In this document: piece after piece, positions 10,396-45,726 of the stretch
How the letters are laid out: the number at the start of each line of letters is the position of its first letter
Position numbering within the stretch: the first letter of the stretch is position 1
NCBI RefSeq assembly: GCF_002072105.2
Contig: NZ_MTBC01000002.1
Coordinates: 310,001 to 374,000 of the forward strand
DNA from: Croceivirga radicis
GTDB taxonomy: Bacteria > Bacteroidota > Bacteroidia > Flavobacteriales > Flavobacteriaceae
Direction: 5' to 3'
Length of the DNA: 64,000 nt
Notes under the pieces: generated by a model
Seen by the model: only the letters and a program-made list of their open reading frames with translations
Databases searched by the model: none
Told to the model about the DNA's origin: nothing
Made by a program: the position numbers and the translations under genes

Positions 10396-10406
10396 TCCTC
10401 CATTAA

Positions 10407-10483
10407 TGAGGAAGGATTTGACTGATTGCAACCTCAGAAGTTGAAACTGGTTTTCGGCGGAAATAAAAAAATGCTAAAAAGTG
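10407..10483 (+). promoter_or_regulatory. SAM-II-like riboswitch upstream of metK
   Basis: P1 can form between TGAGG (10407-10411) and CCTCA (10432-10436). The enclosed loop AAGGATTTGACTGATTGCAA and the downstream strand ATGCTAAAAAGTGG (10471-10484) match the SAM-II core I know (GATTT...ATTGCA...GCTAAAAAGG). Pseudoknot pairs ACT/AGT and GCA/TGC are possible. The stretch between P1 and the 3' strand is long (about 34 bases), as in described long-loop SAM-II variants. It lies between the promoter and the metK start, which is the expected place for SAM feedback. The covariation score was not computed. Confidence 0.72.
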
Positions 10484-10535
10484 GTGTTAACTTCTTTGGG
10501 GTGTTTCGTCAAATCTATCCATAAAATTGAAATGA

Positions 10536-15258: not shown

Positions 15259-15287
15259 CCCTATAAAGTTCACACACGTATTGAATA

Positions 15288-15404
15288 GTTATCAAGAAAG
15301 GTGGAGGGAATAGACCCTTTGAAGCCTTAGCAACCCTTGAGCGTTACCAACGACTGTTGGTACTCCAAGAAGGTGCTACATTCTACCCTTGTGGGAAGGA
15401 TAAC
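15288..15404 (+). promoter_or_regulatory. SAM-I (S-box) riboswitch before metY
   Basis: The core is clear: GTTATC opens P1, followed by AAGAAAGGTGGAGGG, the TGAAGCCTTAGCAACC junction, GAAGGTGCTACATTCTACC, and GATAAC closes P1 at 15399-15404. These are the invariant blocks of SAM-I aptamers. Downstream the leader continues for 109 bases with a palindrome GAGAATTTCTC (15410-15420) and a hairpin ACGACA/TGTCGT (15454-15469) but no classical terminator, so the mode of control is not decided. The whole 15137-15513 intergenic stretch is taken up by promoter, riboswitch and leader. Confidence 0.92.
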
Positions 15405-15513
15405 ACACAGAGAATTTCTCATCTATCTTCTTATAACTTTTTTATACCTGTTTACGACAAACATGTCGTTGGCTTTTAGTATTCAATTTTTAATAGTCGA
15501 TAAAAACAGAAAC

Positions 15514-16833: not shown

Positions 16834-19800
16834 ATGTTACATCAATTTAAGATAGAAAATTTCAATACCCTGAGTGGTGCTACGCAAGACATTCAATTGT
16901 CTTATCAGCTTTTTGGTAAAGAATTGCACACGGCCCCAATTGTGATGGTGAATCATGCGTTGACGGGTAACTCAAATGTTACCGGAGACGAGGGCTGGTG
17001 GTCAGAAATTATTGGAGAAGGAAAATGTATAGATACCCAAATTTATACCGTGCTGGCATTTAACATTCCGGGTAATGGGTTTGATGGCTTTGTCATAGAA
17101 AATTATAAAGATTTTGTGGCTGGCGATATGGCACGTATTTTTCTAAAAGGATTAGAATTACTTAAGGTAACCCACTTACATGCTTTGGTAGGTGGTTCTT
17201 TGGGTGGCGGCATTGCTTGGGAAATGATTGCGTTAAAACCTGATATTGCCGATAATTTAATACCCGTGGCATCCGATTGGAAATCTACGGATTGGTTAAT
17301 TGCCAACTGCCAAATTCAAGAACAGTTTTTGGTCAATTCCAAGAATCCAGTGCATGATGCTCGTATGCATGCCATGCTGTGTTACCGTACACCAGAGTCT
17401 TTTAAAGAACGCTTTAAAAGAAGTACCAATGAGGAGCTCAATGTGTTCAATGTAGAAAGTTGGTTAATGCACCACGGTAAAAAGTTGCAAGAACGCTTTC
17501 AACTATCAGCATATAAGTTGATGAACCAACTACTCAAGACTATTGATATAACTCGCAATGGTGAAGCCATTTTTACCAAGATTGAAGAAAGCAACATACG
17601 CATACACATCATTGGGGTAAATTCTGATTTGTTTTTTACCGCAGAAGAAAACAAGGAAACGTACAAAAGATTGGCTCAAAGTAGTAGCAATGTTACCTAC
17701 GGTGAGGTACAATCGTTGCATGGGCATGATGCATTTTTAATAGAATTTAAACAATTAGAAAATTTAATACGCCCAGTATTTGAGCAGCAACGCGTTCAAT
17801 CTGGATTAAAGGTTTTAAAATTTGGGGGTCGTTCTTTGGCCAACGGTAAAGGTTTAAATGCGGTTTTGGACATACTAACCCAAAGGGTTGCGGCTGGCGA
17901 ACGTTTGGCGGTTGTACTTTCTGCTAGAGAAAAAGCTACGGACACCTTGGAGCGTATGTTAGAAAAAGCCGCTTCTGGAGGGGATTATAGCGTAGATCTA
18001 CAAAGCTTTGCCCTTTACCAACTGGCAGGTTTGGCCCAAGTAGATATGAGTCAAGAACTTTCGGTATTGGAAAGCAAATTAAATGGTGTTGCCCTTTTGG
18101 GCGATTATAGTGCCAAAACCAAAGATGAGGTGTTGTCTTTTGGCGAGCTTATTTCAGGGCAATTGGTGAGCCGATTGTTAAAGGAAAAGGGTATTAACGC
18201 GGTATTTATAGATTCGCGCCAGCTCATAAAAACAGATAATGCTTTTGGCGAAGCAAAGGTAGACGAAGGTTTGTCCAAGATCAAGGTGGTTGAAAAATTT
18301 GCCCAATTAGCACCAGATGCAGTGCCAATTATTACGGGCTTTATTGCCTCTAATGAAAAAGGTGAAACTACTACTTTAGGTAGAAATGGTAGTAACTACA
18401 CCGCATCTCTATTTGCCAATTTTTTAGATGCAGAGGAATTACTGAATTATACACATGTAGACGGAATTTTTACCGCAAACCCAGATGTGGTCACAGATGC
18501 CAAAATCATAGATTCACTTTCATTTGCAGAGGCAAATGAGCTAGCCAATTTTGGGGCTAATATTCTTCATGCAAAAACTATAATCCCGCTTTTAGAAAAG
18601 AATATTCCCTTACGTATTTTAAATACGTTCAATCCAGAATCTAACGGTACATTGATCAGTGCCGATGGTGGCAAACAAGGTATTACCTCTTTGAGTGTAA
18701 TGGAAAATATGGCGTTGATTAACCTAGAAGGTCGTGGTTTGCTAGGTAAAGCGGGTGTAGATGCGCGTATTTTTAATGCCTTGGGCCGCAGAAATATAAG
18801 TGTAGGTATCATATCTCAAGGTTCCTCAGAAAGGGGTATTGGTTTGGTGGTAAATGCCAAGCGCGCTTTGGATGCCAAAAAAGCGCTTGAAGATGAATTT
18901 GCAAATGATTTTGGTTCTAAAGACGTTAACAGTATTTCGGTAAATAAAGAGGTAGTGGTAATTTCTGTGGTGGGGCAAGATTTGAGCTCTTTTCACGAAC
19001 CGTTTAATGCGCTGATCAAGAATAAGGTTGTGCCTATTTTATTCAACAATACGGTGTCTGGTAAAAACATCAGTTTGGTGTTCCATAAACAAGATTTACA
19101 CAAAGCCGCCAACGTTATGCATGGGCAAATTTTTGGTATCGCAAAGCGAATTAACCTTGCTATTTTTGGAGTAGGTACGGTAGGTGGCACACTTATAGAC
19201 CAAATTTTGGCTTCTAAAGAAAGCATTGTAGATAGAAAAGGGATAGAGGTAAATATTTTCGCTATCGCTAATTCTAAAAAAGTGTTGTTAAATAGAAAAG
19301 GTGTTGGTGCCCAATGGAAGCAGAACCTCTTAGGGCAAGGAGAAAGCTATAATTTAGACACGCTTATAAAGTTTGCACAAGAAAATCACTTAGAAAACTT
19401 AATCGCAGTGGATAACACAGCGAATGCGGAATTTGTGAAACACTACACTAAACTTATTAAGAGCGGGTTCGACTTGGTATCGTCTAATAAAATAGCCAAT
19501 ACGCTTGATTATCAGTTTTATAAGGATGTTAGAAAGGAGTTGAATGCCAACCGCAAACAGTATTTGTACGAGACAAACGTGGGGGCAGGCTTACCTTTGA
19601 TAGACACCATTAAATTGTTGCATTTATCAGGAGAGAATATTACCCGCATAAAAGGGGTGTTCTCAGGTTCTTTAAGTTACATATTTAATACCTTTTCTGT
19701 AGCCGATGTGCCTTTTTCTAAAGTAGTATTAGAAGCAAAAGAGAAGGGATATACGGAGCCAGACCCTAGGGAAGATTTATCTGGGAACGATGTAGGTAGA

Positions 19801-20220
19801 AAGTTGTTGATATTGGCTCGTGAGCTAGAGTTAGAGAATGAGTTTTCTGATATAAAAATCAAGAATTTGATTCCAGAGCAATTGAGGAATGTAGACCAGG
19901 ATACCTTTTTGGAACGTGTTTCTGAACTGGATGCCGAATTTAAAGCGGTAAAAGAAAATCAAGATGCGGACCATGTTTTACGTTATGTGGGCGATTTGCA
20001 TGGCGATTTGCAACAAGATAAAGGAGTGTTAGAAGTAAAATTAATTTCTGTGCCAAAGTCAAGTGCTTTAGGACAAATAAGTGGTTCGGATTCCATTATT
20101 GAAATTTATACGGAATCATATGGTGAGAACCCAATTACCATACAAGGTGCCGGCGCGGGTGCTGCGGTAACCGCACGTGGCGTATTTGGAGATATTTTGC
20201 GCATAGCAGAGAAAGGCTAG
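16834..20220 (+). CDS. thrA: Fusion: homoserine O-acyltransferase (MetX-like) + aspartate kinase + homoserine dehydrogenase
   Basis: This 1128-residue protein combines three enzymes of one pathway. Residues 1-320 are a MetX-like alpha/beta-hydrolase with NHALTGNS, nucleophile Ser122 in GGSLGGG, Asp265 in GVNSDLFF and His298 in HGHDAFL. Residues 326-610 are aspartate kinase (KFGGRSLANG, with Arg in place of the usual Thr of KFGGTS; LGRNGSNYTAS; VDGIFTANP). An ACT region follows to about 770, then homoserine dehydrogenase (IFGVGTVGG, YETNVGAGLP, GYTEPDPREDLSG DVGRK). It would catalyse steps 1, 3 and 4 from aspartate to O-acyl-homoserine; aspartate-semialdehyde dehydrogenase is absent from the window. 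One frame, no break. It lies between metY and metZ. Confidence 0.93.
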   Translation: MLHQFKIENFNTLSGATQDIQLSYQLFGKELHTAPIVMVNHALTGNSNVTGDEGWWSEIIGEGKCIDTQIYTVLAFNIPGNGFDGFVIENYKDFVAGDMARIFLKGLELLKVTHLHALVGGSLGGGIAWEMIALKPDIADNLIPVASDWKSTDWLIANCQIQEQFLVNSKNPVHDARMHAMLCYRTPESFKERFKRSTNEELNVFNVESWLMHHGKKLQERFQLSAYKLMNQLLKTIDITRNGEAIFTKIEESNIRIHIIGVNSDLFFTAEENKETYKRLAQSSSNVTYGEVQSLHGHDAFLIEFKQLENLIRPVFEQQRVQSGLKVLKFGGRSLANGKGLNAVLDILTQRVAAGERLAVVLSAREKATDTLERMLEKAASGGDYSVDLQSFALYQLAGLAQVDMSQELSVLESKLNGVALLGDYSAKTKDEVLSFGELISGQLVSRLLKEKGINAVFIDSRQLIKTDNAFGEAKVDEGLSKIKVVEKFAQLAPDAVPIITGFIASNEKGETTTLGRNGSNYTASLFANFLDAEELLNYTHVDGIFTANPDVVTDAKIIDSLSFAEANELANFGANILHAKTIIPLLEKNIPLRILNTFNPESNGTLISADGGKQGITSLSVMENMALINLEGRGLLGKAGVDARIFNALGRRNISVGIISQGSSERGIGLVVNAKRALDAKKALEDEFANDFGSKDVNSISVNKEVVVISVVGQDLSSFHEPFNALIKNKVVPILFNNTVSGKNISLVFHKQDLHKAANVMHGQIFGIAKRINLAIFGVGTVGGTLIDQILASKESIVDRKGIEVNIFAIANSKKVLLNRKGVGAQWKQNLLGQGESYNLDTLIKFAQENHLENLIAVDNTANAEFVKHYTKLIKSGFDLVSSNKIANTLDYQFYKDVRKELNANRKQYLYETNVGAGLPLIDTIKLLHLSGENITRIKGVFSGSLSYIFNTFSVADVPFSKVVLEAKEKGYTEPDPREDLSGNDVGRKLLILARELELENEFSDIKIKNLIPEQLRNVDQDTFLERVSELDAEFKAVKENQDADHVLRYVGDLHGDLQQDKGVLEVKLISVPKSSALGQISGSDSIIEIYTESYGENPITIQGAGAGAAVTARGVFGDILRIAEKG

Positions 20221-30109: not shown

Positions 30110-30187
30110 GTGATAAAAGAAACGGTTTTTTTGTATTTAATCCGTAAGGGCCTTTTCTTTGCACGCAGTTCATTAAAAATAATGTAG

Positions 30188-30339
30188 GTTATCAAGAAAG
30201 GTGGAGGGAATAGACCCGTTGAAACCTTAGCAACCCTTGCTTTAACTAGTATAAGCAATGAAGGTGCTACATTCTACTTCATATTTAGATAGATTCAACT
30301 CTGTTGAAAATCGTTAAAGCCTTTATGAAGAAGGATAAC
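30188..30339 (+). promoter_or_regulatory. SAM-I (S-box) riboswitch before metH
   Basis: GTTATC (30188-30193) and GATAAC (30334-30339) close P1. Between them are AAGAAAGGTGGAGGG, GTTGAAACCTTAGCAACCC, and GAAGGTGCTACATTCTAC, essentially the same core as the copy before metY, but with a longer variable P4-side arm (about 35 extra bases). A likely promoter (TTTTTTTG ... TTCTTTG near 30126-30160) precedes it. The 30058-30423 gap is filled by terminator, riboswitch and the second promoter described separately. Confidence 0.92.
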
Positions 30340-41550: not shown

Positions 41551-41558
41551 TAACTTTG
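41551..41558 (+). promoter_or_regulatory. Promoter -7 box for the aromatic operon leader
   Basis: TAACTTTG matches TAnnTTTG, 45 bases before the leader peptide ATG. TTTTG at 41521-41525 is a possible but distant (25-base) -33 element. Confidence 0.5.
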
Positions 41559-41603
41559 TCATTCATAAAGAAAGGGTAATCTTAGCCGAACATTTATAAC
41601 AAG

Positions 41604-41675
41604 ATGAGCAAATTATATTTCTGGAACCGTTTTTATTTTTACTTCTTTTTCCAAAGAGGTACGGGACTGTTCTAG
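41604..41675 (+). CDS. Phe/Tyr-rich leader peptide of the aromatic amino acid operon
   Basis: A 24-codon reading frame (ATG to TAG) encodes 23 residues with seven Phe, three Tyr and one Trp; codons 10-16 are Phe-Tyr-Phe-Tyr-Phe-Phe-Phe. It lies between a -7 box and an intrinsic terminator, 61 bases before prephenate dehydratase. The last codons (ACG GGA CTG) contain CGGGAC, which can pair with the 5' arm of the terminator. This is the arrangement of a ribosome-stalling attenuator sensing charged tRNA-Phe (and perhaps tRNA-Tyr). It is too short to be found as an ordinary gene. Confidence 0.85.
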   Translation: MSKLYFWNRFYFYFFFQRGTGLF

Positions 41676-41701
41676 CTATATGTAACTAAATAAAACAATA
41701 A

Positions 41702-41733
41702 GGTCCCGATGTTAAATTCGGGACTTTTTTTTT
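41702..41733 (+). terminator. Attenuator terminator before pheA
   Basis: GTCCCGA (41703-41709) pairs with TCGGGAC (41718-41724), followed by nine T; the run ends three bases before the pheA ATG. The 5' arm can instead pair with CGGGAC at 41662-41667 inside the leader peptide frame, giving an antiterminator. The 41348-41736 gap holds this attenuator, the leader peptide and the promoters. Confidence 0.88.
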
Positions 41734-41736
41734 GCA

Positions 41737-42567
41737 ATGGATTTAAAAATAGCCATACAGGGAATAAAAGGAAGTAACCACCACAAGGTAGCCAATGACT
41801 ACTTTGGAGATGCCATAAACTTGGTAGAGTGCATGTCTTTTGATAAGTTGGTGGCCAGCGTTCTAGATGGTACTGCAGACAAAGCGGTAATGGCCATAGA
41901 AAACTCTATTGCGGGGAGCATAATTCCCAATTACAATTTAGTTTACCATAATAATTTGCACATTATAGGGGAGCAATATCTAAACATTAACCATAATTTA
42001 ATGGTGTTAAAAGGGCAAGATATTTCCAAAATTACAGAAGTACGCTCCCACCCTATGGCTTTGTTACAGTGCATGGATTTTTTAAAGCAGTACGACCATA
42101 TTAAATTGGTAGAAGATGTGGATACGGCAGAAACAGCAAAACAAATCCAAGAAAATCAATTAGCGCATGTAGCCGCAATTGCCCCAGATGTAGCTGCCGA
42201 GTTGTATAATTTAGAAATTATAGCGCCGGCCATACAAACCATAAAAAATAACGCTACGCGTTTTATTATCCTAAAAAAAGAGAACAAAGAATGGCCTAAG
42301 GAAGCTATTAACAAAGCATCTCTTAGGTTTATTACCGACCATAAAAGAGGTAGTTTGGCAGCCGTACTTAATGTGATGAGCGATTGCCATTTAAACCTAA
42401 CTAAAATACAATCCCTACCTGTAATTGAAACCCCTTGGAAGTACGCTTTTTTTGTAGATGTAACTTTTGATGCGTATCAAAATTTTGCTAAAGCGAAAAG
42501 TTTACTAGAAATAATGGCAGAAGATTTTAGGGTATTGGGAGAATATAAAAATGCATTGATAAAATGA
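41737..42567 (+). CDS. pheA: Prephenate dehydratase
   Basis: This 276-residue enzyme converts prephenate to phenylpyruvate for phenylalanine. It has the N-terminal IAIQGIKGSNHHKVANDYFG, AVMAIENSIAGSI and NNATRFIIL in the catalytic part, and a C-terminal ACT domain from about residue 195 (KRGSLAAVLNVMSDCHLNLTKIQSLP), which normally gives feedback inhibition by Phe. It is not fused to chorismate mutase; that activity is in the DAHP synthase fusion of this operon. Its stop overlaps the next ATG by four bases. It is controlled by the upstream attenuator. Confidence 0.94.
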   Translation: MDLKIAIQGIKGSNHHKVANDYFGDAINLVECMSFDKLVASVLDGTADKAVMAIENSIAGSIIPNYNLVYHNNLHIIGEQYLNINHNLMVLKGQDISKITEVRSHPMALLQCMDFLKQYDHIKLVEDVDTAETAKQIQENQLAHVAAIAPDVAAELYNLEIIAPAIQTIKNNATRFIILKKENKEWPKEAINKASLRFITDHKRGSLAAVLNVMSDCHLNLTKIQSLPVIETPWKYAFFVDVTFDAYQNFAKAKSLLEIMAEDFRVLGEYKNALIK

Positions 42568-43706
42568 CAACGGCAGACAGATTAAACTCGGTACAAGAGT
42601 ACTACTTCTCTAGAAAATTAAGAGAGGTACGTGGTCTTATGGCAGATGGGAAGCCCATAATCAATATGGGCATAGGTAGTCCAGATTTGGCACCTTCGCC
42701 AAAGGTGTTACAAACACTAAGTGCAGCTATTTTAGATGCAGGGGCACACCAGTATCAGAGTTATCAGGGCTTACCAGAATTACGATCGGCAATTGCCAAA
42801 TTTTATCAAGATAAATTTAATGTAGCGGTAGATGCCAACACAGAAGTATTGCCATTAATGGGTTCTAAAGAAGGGATTATGCATATTAGCATGGCCTTTT
42901 TAAATGTGGGAGATGAGGTGCTTTTGCCCAACCCAGGATACCCCACCTATGGATCGGTTACCAAATTGGTAGAAGCAGTACCAAAAACGTACGATTTAAC
43001 TGCGGAGAATGGATGGTTTCCAGATTTGGAAGTGCTAGAGAAAGAAGATTTAAGCAAGGTAAAATTAATGTGGGTGAGCTATCCGCATATGCCAACAGGA
43101 GCAACCGCAACCACCGAGCAAATGCAAGAACTATTGGCATTTGCCAAGCGCAATTCTATTTTATTGGTGAATGACAATCCGTATAGTTTTGTTTTGGCCA
43201 ATAACCCAACCAGTATGTTATCCTTGCCAGGAGCAAAAGAAGTGGCCTTGGAATTAAATTCATTGAGCAAAACCTTTAATATGGCTGGTTGGCGTGTAGG
43301 AATGCTATTGGGGAATGCTGATTACATTAATGCAGTACTTAAGGTAAAGAGCAATATGGATTCTGGAATGTTCTATGGTATTCAAAAAGGAGCTGTAGCT
43401 GCTTTAGAAAGCGGTAAGGAATGGTTTGAAGCTTTAGATGAGGTCTACCAAAAAAGAAGAGCTTTAATCTATCAATTAGCAGATAAATTGGGGTGTACCT
43501 ATGACACCAATGCTGTTGGTATGTTTGTTTGGTGTAAACTGCCAGAAGGAGCCAAAGACGCAGGAAGTTTTATTGATGAGGTGTTGTACGATAAGCATAT
43601 TTTTATTGCGCCAGGTACCATTTTTGGAACAAACGGTGAGGGATACATTCGTTTTTCGCTTTGCGTAAAAGAAGAGAAAATACAAGAAGCCATAGAAAGA
43701 TTCTAA
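42564..43706 (+). CDS. Class I/II PLP aminotransferase, probably aromatic
   Basis: The 380-residue enzyme has the fold-type I motifs HQYQSYQGLPELRSAIAKFY, NPGYPTYGSV and the PLP lysine in LNSLSKTFNMAGWRVG. By its place between prephenate dehydratase and prephenate dehydrogenase it most likely transaminates phenylpyruvate and 4-hydroxyphenylpyruvate (or prephenate). The sequence alone does not exclude other amino acid substrates. It overlaps pheA by ATGA. Confidence 0.88.
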   Translation: MTTADRLNSVQEYYFSRKLREVRGLMADGKPIINMGIGSPDLAPSPKVLQTLSAAILDAGAHQYQSYQGLPELRSAIAKFYQDKFNVAVDANTEVLPLMGSKEGIMHISMAFLNVGDEVLLPNPGYPTYGSVTKLVEAVPKTYDLTAENGWFPDLEVLEKEDLSKVKLMWVSYPHMPTGATATTEQMQELLAFAKRNSILLVNDNPYSFVLANNPTSMLSLPGAKEVALELNSLSKTFNMAGWRVGMLLGNADYINAVLKVKSNMDSGMFYGIQKGAVAALESGKEWFEALDEVYQKRRALIYQLADKLGCTYDTNAVGMFVWCKLPEGAKDAGSFIDEVLYDKHIFIAPGTIFGTNGEGYIRFSLCVKEEKIQEAIERF

Positions 43707-43708
43707 GC

Positions 43709-44569
43709 ATGAAAGTAGTTGTAGTTGGTATAGGGTTAATTGGAGGCTCTTTTGCAAAAGACATACGGGAAACGCATCCAAAGGTTTGTATAGAGGGTAT
43801 AGACGCAAATACTTCGCATATAGAAGAAGCTATTGATTTGGGTTTAATAGATGCGGCTACCACCTATAAGGGTTTAGCAGATGCAGATGTGGTAATTGTA
43901 GCTATTCCAGTAACGGTTTTGGCCAAAGAGTTACCCATCATACTAGACTATGTTGGGGAAGAAACAGTGGTGATTGATGCTGGTTCTACCAAAGCACAAA
44001 TTTGTAAGGTTGTAGCGGAACATCCAAAACGTAGAAATTATTTGGCATGCCACCCTATAGCAGGTACTGAGTATTCTGGGCCGTCTGCAGCAATTAGTGG
44101 ATTGTACAATGGCAAAACCAACATAATCTGTGAGGTAGAGCAAACCGCATTTAAATTACAAGAGAAAGCCTTGGCCTTATTTGAAAAATTAGGCATGAGA
44201 ATCCGGTATATGAATCCCGATAATCATGATAAACATATAGCTTACGTATCGCATCTGTCACACATTAGTTCCTTTATGTTAGGAAAGACGGTTATTGAGA
44301 AAGAAAAAAATGAGCGTGATATTTTTGACATGGCTGGTAGTGGATTTGAGAGTACGGTGCGGTTGGCAAAAAGTTCCCCTGCAATGTGGGCACCAATTTT
44401 TGAGCAAAACAAAGCAAATGTATTAGAAACATTAACAGAGTACATTAACAATTTGGAATCCTTTAAAAAAATGATGGAGGATGATGATTTTGATGGACTT
44501 TATGAAGAAATGAACAATACCAATAGAATAAAACAAATATTAAACGGAATACCACTTACTAAAAAATAG
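43709..44569 (+). CDS. tyrA: Prephenate dehydrogenase
   Basis: This 286-residue NAD(P)-dependent enzyme makes 4-hydroxyphenylpyruvate for tyrosine. The Rossmann motif GIGLIGGS is at residues 7-14; STKAQI, HPIAGTEYSGPSAA and HIAYVSHLSHISS (catalytic His) are the TyrA signature blocks. The open frame extends upstream into the aminotransferase gene, but the ATG at 43709 (MKVVVVGIGLIGG) is the natural start, two bases after that gene's stop. Confidence 0.95.
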   Translation: MKVVVVGIGLIGGSFAKDIRETHPKVCIEGIDANTSHIEEAIDLGLIDAATTYKGLADADVVIVAIPVTVLAKELPIILDYVGEETVVIDAGSTKAQICKVVAEHPKRRNYLACHPIAGTEYSGPSAAISGLYNGKTNIICEVEQTAFKLQEKALALFEKLGMRIRYMNPDNHDKHIAYVSHLSHISSFMLGKTVIEKEKNERDIFDMAGSGFESTVRLAKSSPAMWAPIFEQNKANVLETLTEYINNLESFKKMMEDDDFDGLYEEMNNTNRIKQILNGIPLTKK

Positions 44570-44580
44570 AGATTAGGATT

Positions 44581-45663
44581 ATGGAAAATTCAAAAGAGAT
44601 GAGGAAATGGTTGGATGATATGGCGTTGCCACATCCATTAGTAGTTGCAGGACCATGTAGCGCAGAAACCGAAGAGCAGGTGCTTAAAATTGCACACCAG
44701 CTTAAAGACACGGATGTAAATTATTACCGTGCCGGTATATGGAAACCAAGAACAAGACCAGGAAATTTTGAGGGAGTAGGCGCCATAGGACTAAAGTGGT
44801 TGCAAAAAGTAAAAGAAGAGACAGGTTTAAAAACGGCCACTGAGGTTGCCAATAAAGCACACGTAGATTTAGCTTTAGAGCACGATGTGGATTTATTATG
44901 GATAGGAGCACGTTCTACCGTGAGCCCATTTATTATGCAAGAATTGGCAGATGCGCTGGAAGGTACAGACAAAATTGTCTTGGTAAAGAATCCTGTAAAT
45001 CCAGATTTAGCCTTGTGGTTAGGTGGTATTGAGCGTTTGCATACTGCAGGAATTAAGAAGTTAGGTGCCATCCATAGAGGGTTTTCTACCTATGAGAAGA
45101 CCAAGTATAGAAATATACCAGAATGGCAAATGGCGATTGAGTTTCAGAACAGGTTTCCAGATTTACCTTTAATCAATGATCCATCTCATATAACAGGAAA
45201 GAGAGATATGATATTTGATGTTTCTCAGACGGCTTTAGATTTAAATTTTGACGGTTTGATGATTGAAACACACCATGATCCAGATAACGCATGGAGTGAT
45301 GCCGCGCAGCAAGTTACTCCAGATAAATTGGTTCAGATTATGCGAGATCTAAAAATAAGAAAAGAAAGTGATCCAGAAGCAGAATACAATGCGCATTTAA
45401 GTAACCTAAGAGCGCAGATTGATGTTATTGATAACCAATTGATCGAGACTTTAGGTAAAAGGATGAAAGTTTCTGACGGTATTGGTGAGTTGAAAAAACA
45501 AAAGAATGTTGCCGTTTTACAAACCAATAGATGGAATACTATTTTGGGTAAAATGATTTTAGAGGGTGAGCAGCATGGATTAAGTGAAGAATTTGTTTTA
45601 AAAATGTTTAAAGCAATTCACCAAGAATCTATTAACCATCAAGAAAAGATAATCAACTCTTAG
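44581..45663 (+). CDS. Bifunctional DAHP synthase / chorismate mutase
   Basis: The 360-residue protein has a type I-beta DAHP synthase domain (about residues 1-265; VAGPCSAETEEQV, RAGIWKPRTRPGNFEG, INDPSHITGKRD) followed by an AroQ chorismate mutase domain (about 275-360; LRAQIDVIDNQLIETLGKRM). It thus covers the first shikimate-pathway step and the step feeding prephenate to the two upstream enzymes. Fused mutase domains often mediate feedback by prephenate or chorismate. It is the last gene of the attenuated operon and is followed by a terminator. Confidence 0.95.
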   Translation: MENSKEMRKWLDDMALPHPLVVAGPCSAETEEQVLKIAHQLKDTDVNYYRAGIWKPRTRPGNFEGVGAIGLKWLQKVKEETGLKTATEVANKAHVDLALEHDVDLLWIGARSTVSPFIMQELADALEGTDKIVLVKNPVNPDLALWLGGIERLHTAGIKKLGAIHRGFSTYEKTKYRNIPEWQMAIEFQNRFPDLPLINDPSHITGKRDMIFDVSQTALDLNFDGLMIETHHDPDNAWSDAAQQVTPDKLVQIMRDLKIRKESDPEAEYNAHLSNLRAQIDVIDNQLIETLGKRMKVSDGIGELKKQKNVAVLQTNRWNTILGKMILEGEQHGLSEEFVLKMFKAIHQESINHQEKIINS

Positions 45664-45687: not shown

Positions 45688-45726
45688 AAAAGGGTCATTT
45701 CTATATAGAAATGGCCTTTTTATTTT
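45688..45726 (+). terminator. Terminator of the aromatic operon
   Basis: AAGGGTCATTTC / GAAATGGCCTT stem (with one wobble) and a T-rich tail. Confidence 0.8.

Follow-up and report, generated by a model that had tools for sequence, protein, structure and literature searches.

Ribosome-mediated transcription attenuation is a textbook mechanism, and among its best described examples is the enterobacterial pheA attenuator (pheL; Rfam RF01859, Phe_leader), in which an aromatic leader peptide is followed by 1:2, 2:3 and 3:4 hairpins and a U-tailed terminator. The E. coli pheA leader peptide uses Phe only. Attenuators of the ilv type are multivalent, in that a single leader carries codons for several amino acids made by the same pathway. 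In Bacteroidetes, the Bacteroid-trp RNA motif (Rfam RF01692), named for trp, is a candidate cis-regulatory RNA, and the abstract of a 2004 comparative-genomics paper on attenuation is said to mention Bacteroidetes/Chlorobi. Closest to the present case is a transcriptome paper on Flavobacterium psychrophilum (PMC9723704, 2021), which lists a structured element in the 5′ region ahead of pheA, conserved in other Flavobacteriaceae genera and lacking an Rfam match, and which sees hints that amino-acid operons of that species are attenuated through leader peptides. That element precedes the same gene in the same bacterial family as the locus described here, but the main-text section devoted to it contains no peptide or pairing scheme, nor does it report spacing or a survey of the class. 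The mechanism is thus well known and its presence in flavobacteria had, from what that text offers, already been inferred, although it is little documented in the phylum; what is new here is the pairing scheme, its co-variation, a fixed spacing, the Phe plus Tyr composition of the leader and the class-wide range. The original prediction had called this logic best known in Proteobacteria, which makes the element sound newer to the phylum than the F. psychrophilum report allows.

The locus lies in a 64,000-nt stretch of the genome of Croceivirga radicis, a marine flavobacterium (hereafter the window), where four genes on the forward strand form an aromatic amino acid operon. The first is pheA, a prephenate dehydratase with an ACT domain (41737..42567; PF00800, E = 8e-57), followed by a class I/II aminotransferase that overlaps it by 4 nt (42564..43706; PF00155, E = 3e-60), the prephenate dehydrogenase tyrA (43709..44569; PF02153, PF20463) and, as the last gene, a DAHP synthase-chorismate mutase fusion (44581..45663; PF00793, PF01817), past which there is a terminator-like site at 45688-45721. 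The pheA gene shares 99% identity with its counterpart in 'Flavobacterium sp. ASW18X', and the nearest named relatives include Croceivirga, Flagellimonas, Maribacter and Arenibacter. Taking anatomy and comparative sequence evidence together, it is very probable that this operon is controlled by a classical ribosome-mediated transcription attenuator.

Upstream of pheA lies a short forward-strand frame (41604..41675) encoding MSKLYFWNRFYFYFFFQRGTGLF, with its ATG at 41604 and a TAG at 41673-41675. Its 23 residues comprise 7 Phe, 3 Tyr and 1 Trp, and codons 10-16 (41631..41651), the putative regulatory codons, read Phe Tyr Phe Tyr Phe Phe Phe, exactly as first proposed. No NCBIfam or Pfam model matches the peptide. 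Two candidate sigma-A −7 elements precede it, TAACTTTG at 41551-41558, which fits TAnnTTTG, and TAATCTTAG at 41577-41585, some 27 nt ahead of the leader's ATG and at a position that is conserved in relatives; the −7 consensus follows the account in PMC9723704. Within the 70 nt that precede the leader's ATG, the motif TA-N2-3-TTWG occurs in 97/138 relatives (28/138 after shuffling), mostly at −27 to −24 relative to that ATG. Shine-Dalgarno-like words are rare at the same leaders (8/138), with none before the C. radicis leader.

The leader RNA is far more stably folded than shuffled versions of it (z = −4.7, 0/200). The terminator stem pairs segment 3 (GGTCCCGA, 41702..41709) with segment 4 (TCGGGACT, 41718-41725) in a hairpin of −14.8 kcal/mol, and the U tract (41725-41733), which completes a 3′ side spanning 41718..41733, is followed by GCA and the pheA ATG at 41737, so that the nine T and the 3-nt gap before pheA are as originally read. 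Segment 2 (CGGGACT, 41662..41668), the putative 5′ arm of the antiterminator, starts 10 nt past the last aromatic codon and pairs over its full length with GGTCCCG in segment 3 at −11.1 kcal/mol, which bears out the proposal that the CGGGAC at 41662-41667, within codons 20-22, could pair with the 5′ arm of the terminator. These two competing hairpins, the only ones originally proposed, are joined by a third element: segment 1 (41621..41633) pairs with 41663-41675 in a 1:2 protector hairpin, within which the Phe-run TTCTTT (41643-41648) pairs with AAGAGG (41653-41658) to form a nested hairpin (41643..41658). RNAalifold on the near-clade alignment of 38 relatives recovers the 1:2 hairpin (columns 18-30 with 60-72), the nested hairpin and the terminator, and the single-sequence fold contains the nested hairpin and one similar to 1:2. 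The protector is conserved inside the near clade; on the cross-clade alignment the 1:2 hairpin was not resolved. Directly after segment 2, TATGTA is retained in five leaders (L029, L039, L044, L054 and L001) even outside the reading frame and thus looks like an RNA element, possibly pairing with a TACATA towards the leader's 5′ end.

This arrangement suggests how control would operate. As RNA polymerase transcribes the leader, a ribosome behind it would read the 23-codon frame. A shortage of charged Phe-tRNA or Tyr-tRNA would make the ribosome stall at codons 10-16 and break the 1:2 hairpin. Segment 2 would then be free to pair with segment 3 (41702-41708) while segment 4 has yet to be made, and the operon would be transcribed. 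With both tRNAs charged, the ribosome would reach the stop codon and cover segment 2, such that 3:4 would form and transcription end at the U tract before pheA. Without translation the 1:2 hairpin would sequester segment 2, making termination the default. Ribosome-masked folding agrees with this scheme. With the A site at codons 6-14, nascent RNA ending before segment 4 forms 2:3 at −11 kcal/mol, beside another hairpin in the case of codon 6; at codon 16 the antiterminator falls to −5 kcal/mol, and from codon 18 onward only the terminator forms.

Conservation was surveyed at 70 pheA loci from the nearest whole genomes, at those of 80 named genomes and at 46 from other families of the class Bacteroidia. 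A scripted search detected a Phe/Tyr-rich frame starting with ATG ahead of pheA at 60/70 Flavobacteriales loci from whole genomes. Two more were added by hand, one cut by a contig end (L022) and one lying ~520-650 nt upstream of pheA behind tandem repeats (L025). All 79 named genomes that have upstream DNA carry a leader, as do about 28 of the 46 loci from other families, there together with a terminator and a complementary segment 2. Some pheA loci are thus without the element. The peptides range from MTKQYFWNGFYFYFFFKRGTGLL in Maribacter and MSNNRFYFSNSFYFFFSRSEDCAMVI in Flavobacterium to MKLFNTYYFGYFYYFSKSRG and MNLNKTYYFFFYFFAALLGHRRGSLM in other families. Every leader scored is followed by a terminator, and all of them have a segment complementary to the terminator 5′ arm close to where the aromatic run ends, except L148, where the script chose the wrong frame and both the true leader and its complementary segment were read by eye. 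A covariance model built on near relatives detects distant leaders, and across 60 genomes its top matches fall before pheA. The order pheA-aminotransferase-tyrA-DAHP synthase holds in 79/80 named loci, the remaining one being cut by a contig end. L233 (G023:C21:148900-149850) has several near-identical ~125-bp tandem repeats (GTTAGTGAAACGTTCATTTTAT...) between terminator and pheA. L149 (CALPLL020000010.1) is on a contig with the title Rhizobium sp. Q54, yet its pheA operon and leader resemble those of Flavobacterium, so that the contig is probably a misassigned bin.

The Phe/Tyr run alone is not rare, a similar pattern having 3 exact matches across the 3.6-Mb genome. With up to two mismatches it is about as common (85+110) as its reversed control (80+93), such that a genome-wide search for such runs alone proved uninformative. 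What goes beyond chance, on comparative grounds, is that relatives conserve the leader, the antiterminator segment and the terminator together. The paired words vary by clade (GGGAC, GAGAC, AGGATTGT, AGCGGGA, GAGGCTTTT, AAGGCT, GAGCGGTC and CCGGG), and segments 2, 3 and 4 change in concert between clades. Because segment 2 was itself located through its complementarity, weight is placed only on the permutation, shuffle and alignment controls. The mean 2:3 score is 17.5 with a leader's own partner, 13.4 with swapped and 10.5 with shuffled partners, and 0/10,000 permutations reach the observed value. In a MAFFT alignment of near relatives 2:3 pairs form in 93.2% of cells, compared with 18.9-60.5% when slid, and four pairs are altered on both sides (0/500 shuffles). 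Between clades segment 2 is offset by one base, with the result that a cross-clade MAFFT alignment recovered only the terminator; cross-clade pairing was therefore tested per sequence with permutations. Within the GTCNCG family the middle pair is G-C in 59 sequences, A-U in 25 and mixed in none. The terminator core type shows at least 22 changes on the pheA tree. Related sequences are not independent, however, and with just two well-supported independent switches of the middle pair to count, a tree-based sign test is impossible. Peptide, competing pairs and terminator are thus all retained in relatives, with the pairs co-varying, and the original prediction survives the check it had set itself, which it would have failed had relatives kept neither the peptide nor the competing pairs.

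Spacing points in the same direction. Segment 2 starts 5-14 nt past the last aromatic codon in 120/120 distinct leaders (median 10, sd 1.3), a range that takes in 28% of segment 2 starts when the region is shuffled. Its distance to the end of the frame, by contrast, lies anywhere between −12 and +20 nt (sd 6.9), the stop codon falling before or after it; that is, the stop wanders over ~30 nt while the distance from aromatic run to segment 2 holds, a pattern that fits a stalled ribosome deciding the fold. A ribosome covers ~10-12 nt downstream of its A site. For a ribosome at a stop codon, coverage reaching as far as 12 nt downstream has been described (PMC4833913). By masked folding and spacing together, the antiterminator arm is placed such that a stalled ribosome would leave it exposed and one that reads on to the stop would cover it, although in a few long-tailed leaders, where segment 2 ends 19-20 nt before the frame does, coverage at the stop would be only partial. 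Conservation, co-variation and spacing thus lend joint support to the original reading of competing hairpins as an attenuator.

It might be argued that the hairpins are real but that their sensor is a protein or a ligand, as in a T-box or riboswitch, with the frame incidental. The region is indeed structured. Moreover, variation at third codon positions of the leaders (0.23) is only moderately higher than at first (0.05) and second (0.14) positions, and codons 14-15 are nearly invariant, third positions included, so that RNA pairing accounts for them equally well as translation does. However, the aromatic frame is kept class-wide while the surrounding RNA sequence changes, and segment 2 keeps its distance from the last aromatic codon. 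The locus matches none of the SAM, T-box or other curated riboswitch covariance models, and the leader has no Rfam match at threshold; the best below it is Phe_leader itself, over the whole model (RF01859, E = 5e-4, 33 bits against a gathering score of 55). A sensor of this sort is accordingly very unlikely. Equally improbable is translational attenuation, in which the structures would gate access to the pheA start and not transcription termination. This would suit the position of the C. radicis terminator, whose U tract ends 3 nt from pheA, and the lack of Shine-Dalgarno-like sites before leaders, but almost all relatives retain a GC-rich hairpin with its U run, even those in which it lies about 50-100 nt ahead of pheA, as a terminator would require and a mask over the start codon would not. 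Finally, intergenic intrinsic terminators are common and Phe/Tyr runs arise by chance in AT-rich DNA, yet the idea that the terminator is constitutive, merely lowering operon expression or ending upstream transcription beside a coincidental leader and antiterminator, is hardly credible given that the gene upstream of the leader is divergent and so cannot be served by it, that own-partner pairing exceeds that of swapped and shuffled partners, and that nearly all close relatives have the leader.

If the locus is a ribosome-mediated attenuator, the question arises of which amino acids it senses. The original prediction tied the operon to charging of Phe-tRNA, but Phe alone is too narrow. Tyr stands beside Phe in all 141 distinct leaders counted, and the operon's enzymes make both, with DAHP synthase also feeding the route to Trp, so that 'Phe' is to be widened to Phe plus Tyr. 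Residues are 25% Phe, 13% Tyr and 2.4% Trp in the Flavobacteriales set and 21%, 17% and 1.3%, respectively, elsewhere in the class. Among distinct near-clade leaders, Phe occupies codons 10, 14 and 15 in 41/41 and Tyr codon 13 in 39/41. Ribosomes are likely to stall on the Tyr codons. The codon-13 UAC does, however, border an RNA hairpin, and an attempt to contrast Tyr codons with tyrA linkage yielded no contrast, 79/80 named loci sharing the same gene order; for these two reasons multivalence is a matter of inference. That stalling at either Phe or Tyr codons, and perhaps at the Trp codon, releases the operon is an even bet. A leader of this kind would read the end products of its own operon's enzymes. 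It would resemble ilv-type attenuators in carrying codons for several end products, though aromatic and not branched-chain, and with its multivalence inferred. Relative to enterobacterial pheA the general anatomy and the target gene are shared, but Tyr is mixed with Phe, the RF01859 score lies under gathering, the operon adds tyrA and DAHP synthase, and there is no Shine-Dalgarno-like site.

The locus provides a clearly anatomised leader-peptide attenuator in Bacteroidota, in which the distance from aromatic codons to antiterminator is fixed while the rest drifts, and adds an unannotated regulatory RNA. The universality of transcription-translation coupling is disputed (PMC7858274). If the present reading is true across many Bacteroidia families, transcription would be tightly coupled to translation in a phylum whose ribosomes initiate without Shine-Dalgarno sequences. 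Since attenuation needs a ribosome close behind RNA polymerase, the conserved geometry is a natural and testable reporter of coupling there.

From sequence, leader-peptide attenuation looks routine in the C. radicis genome. A Trp-rich leader, MKMFTKNNWWWSILRITS, and a terminator precede trpE (L230; G000:C4:72100-72900, − strand), and a His-rich leader, MKRNHVHHHTFTIAQAR, followed by a terminator (GACCCGTTTGAGCATTCAAACGGG plus T7), precedes hisG (L209; G000:C15:73300-74300, − strand). A search before ilvD in the same genome gave no convincing leader, and Bacteroid-trp (RF01692) has no match in the 64-kb window. The window does hold two classes of SAM riboswitch above threshold, one SAM-II and two SAM-I (S box), at 10402-10487, 15286-15406 and 30186-30295, all on the forward strand and sharing one 64-kb neighbourhood. 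Between the two SAM-I riboswitches, a homoserine dehydrogenase domain (19594-20199, + strand) sits in an open frame of 1139 aa, unusually long for that enzyme.
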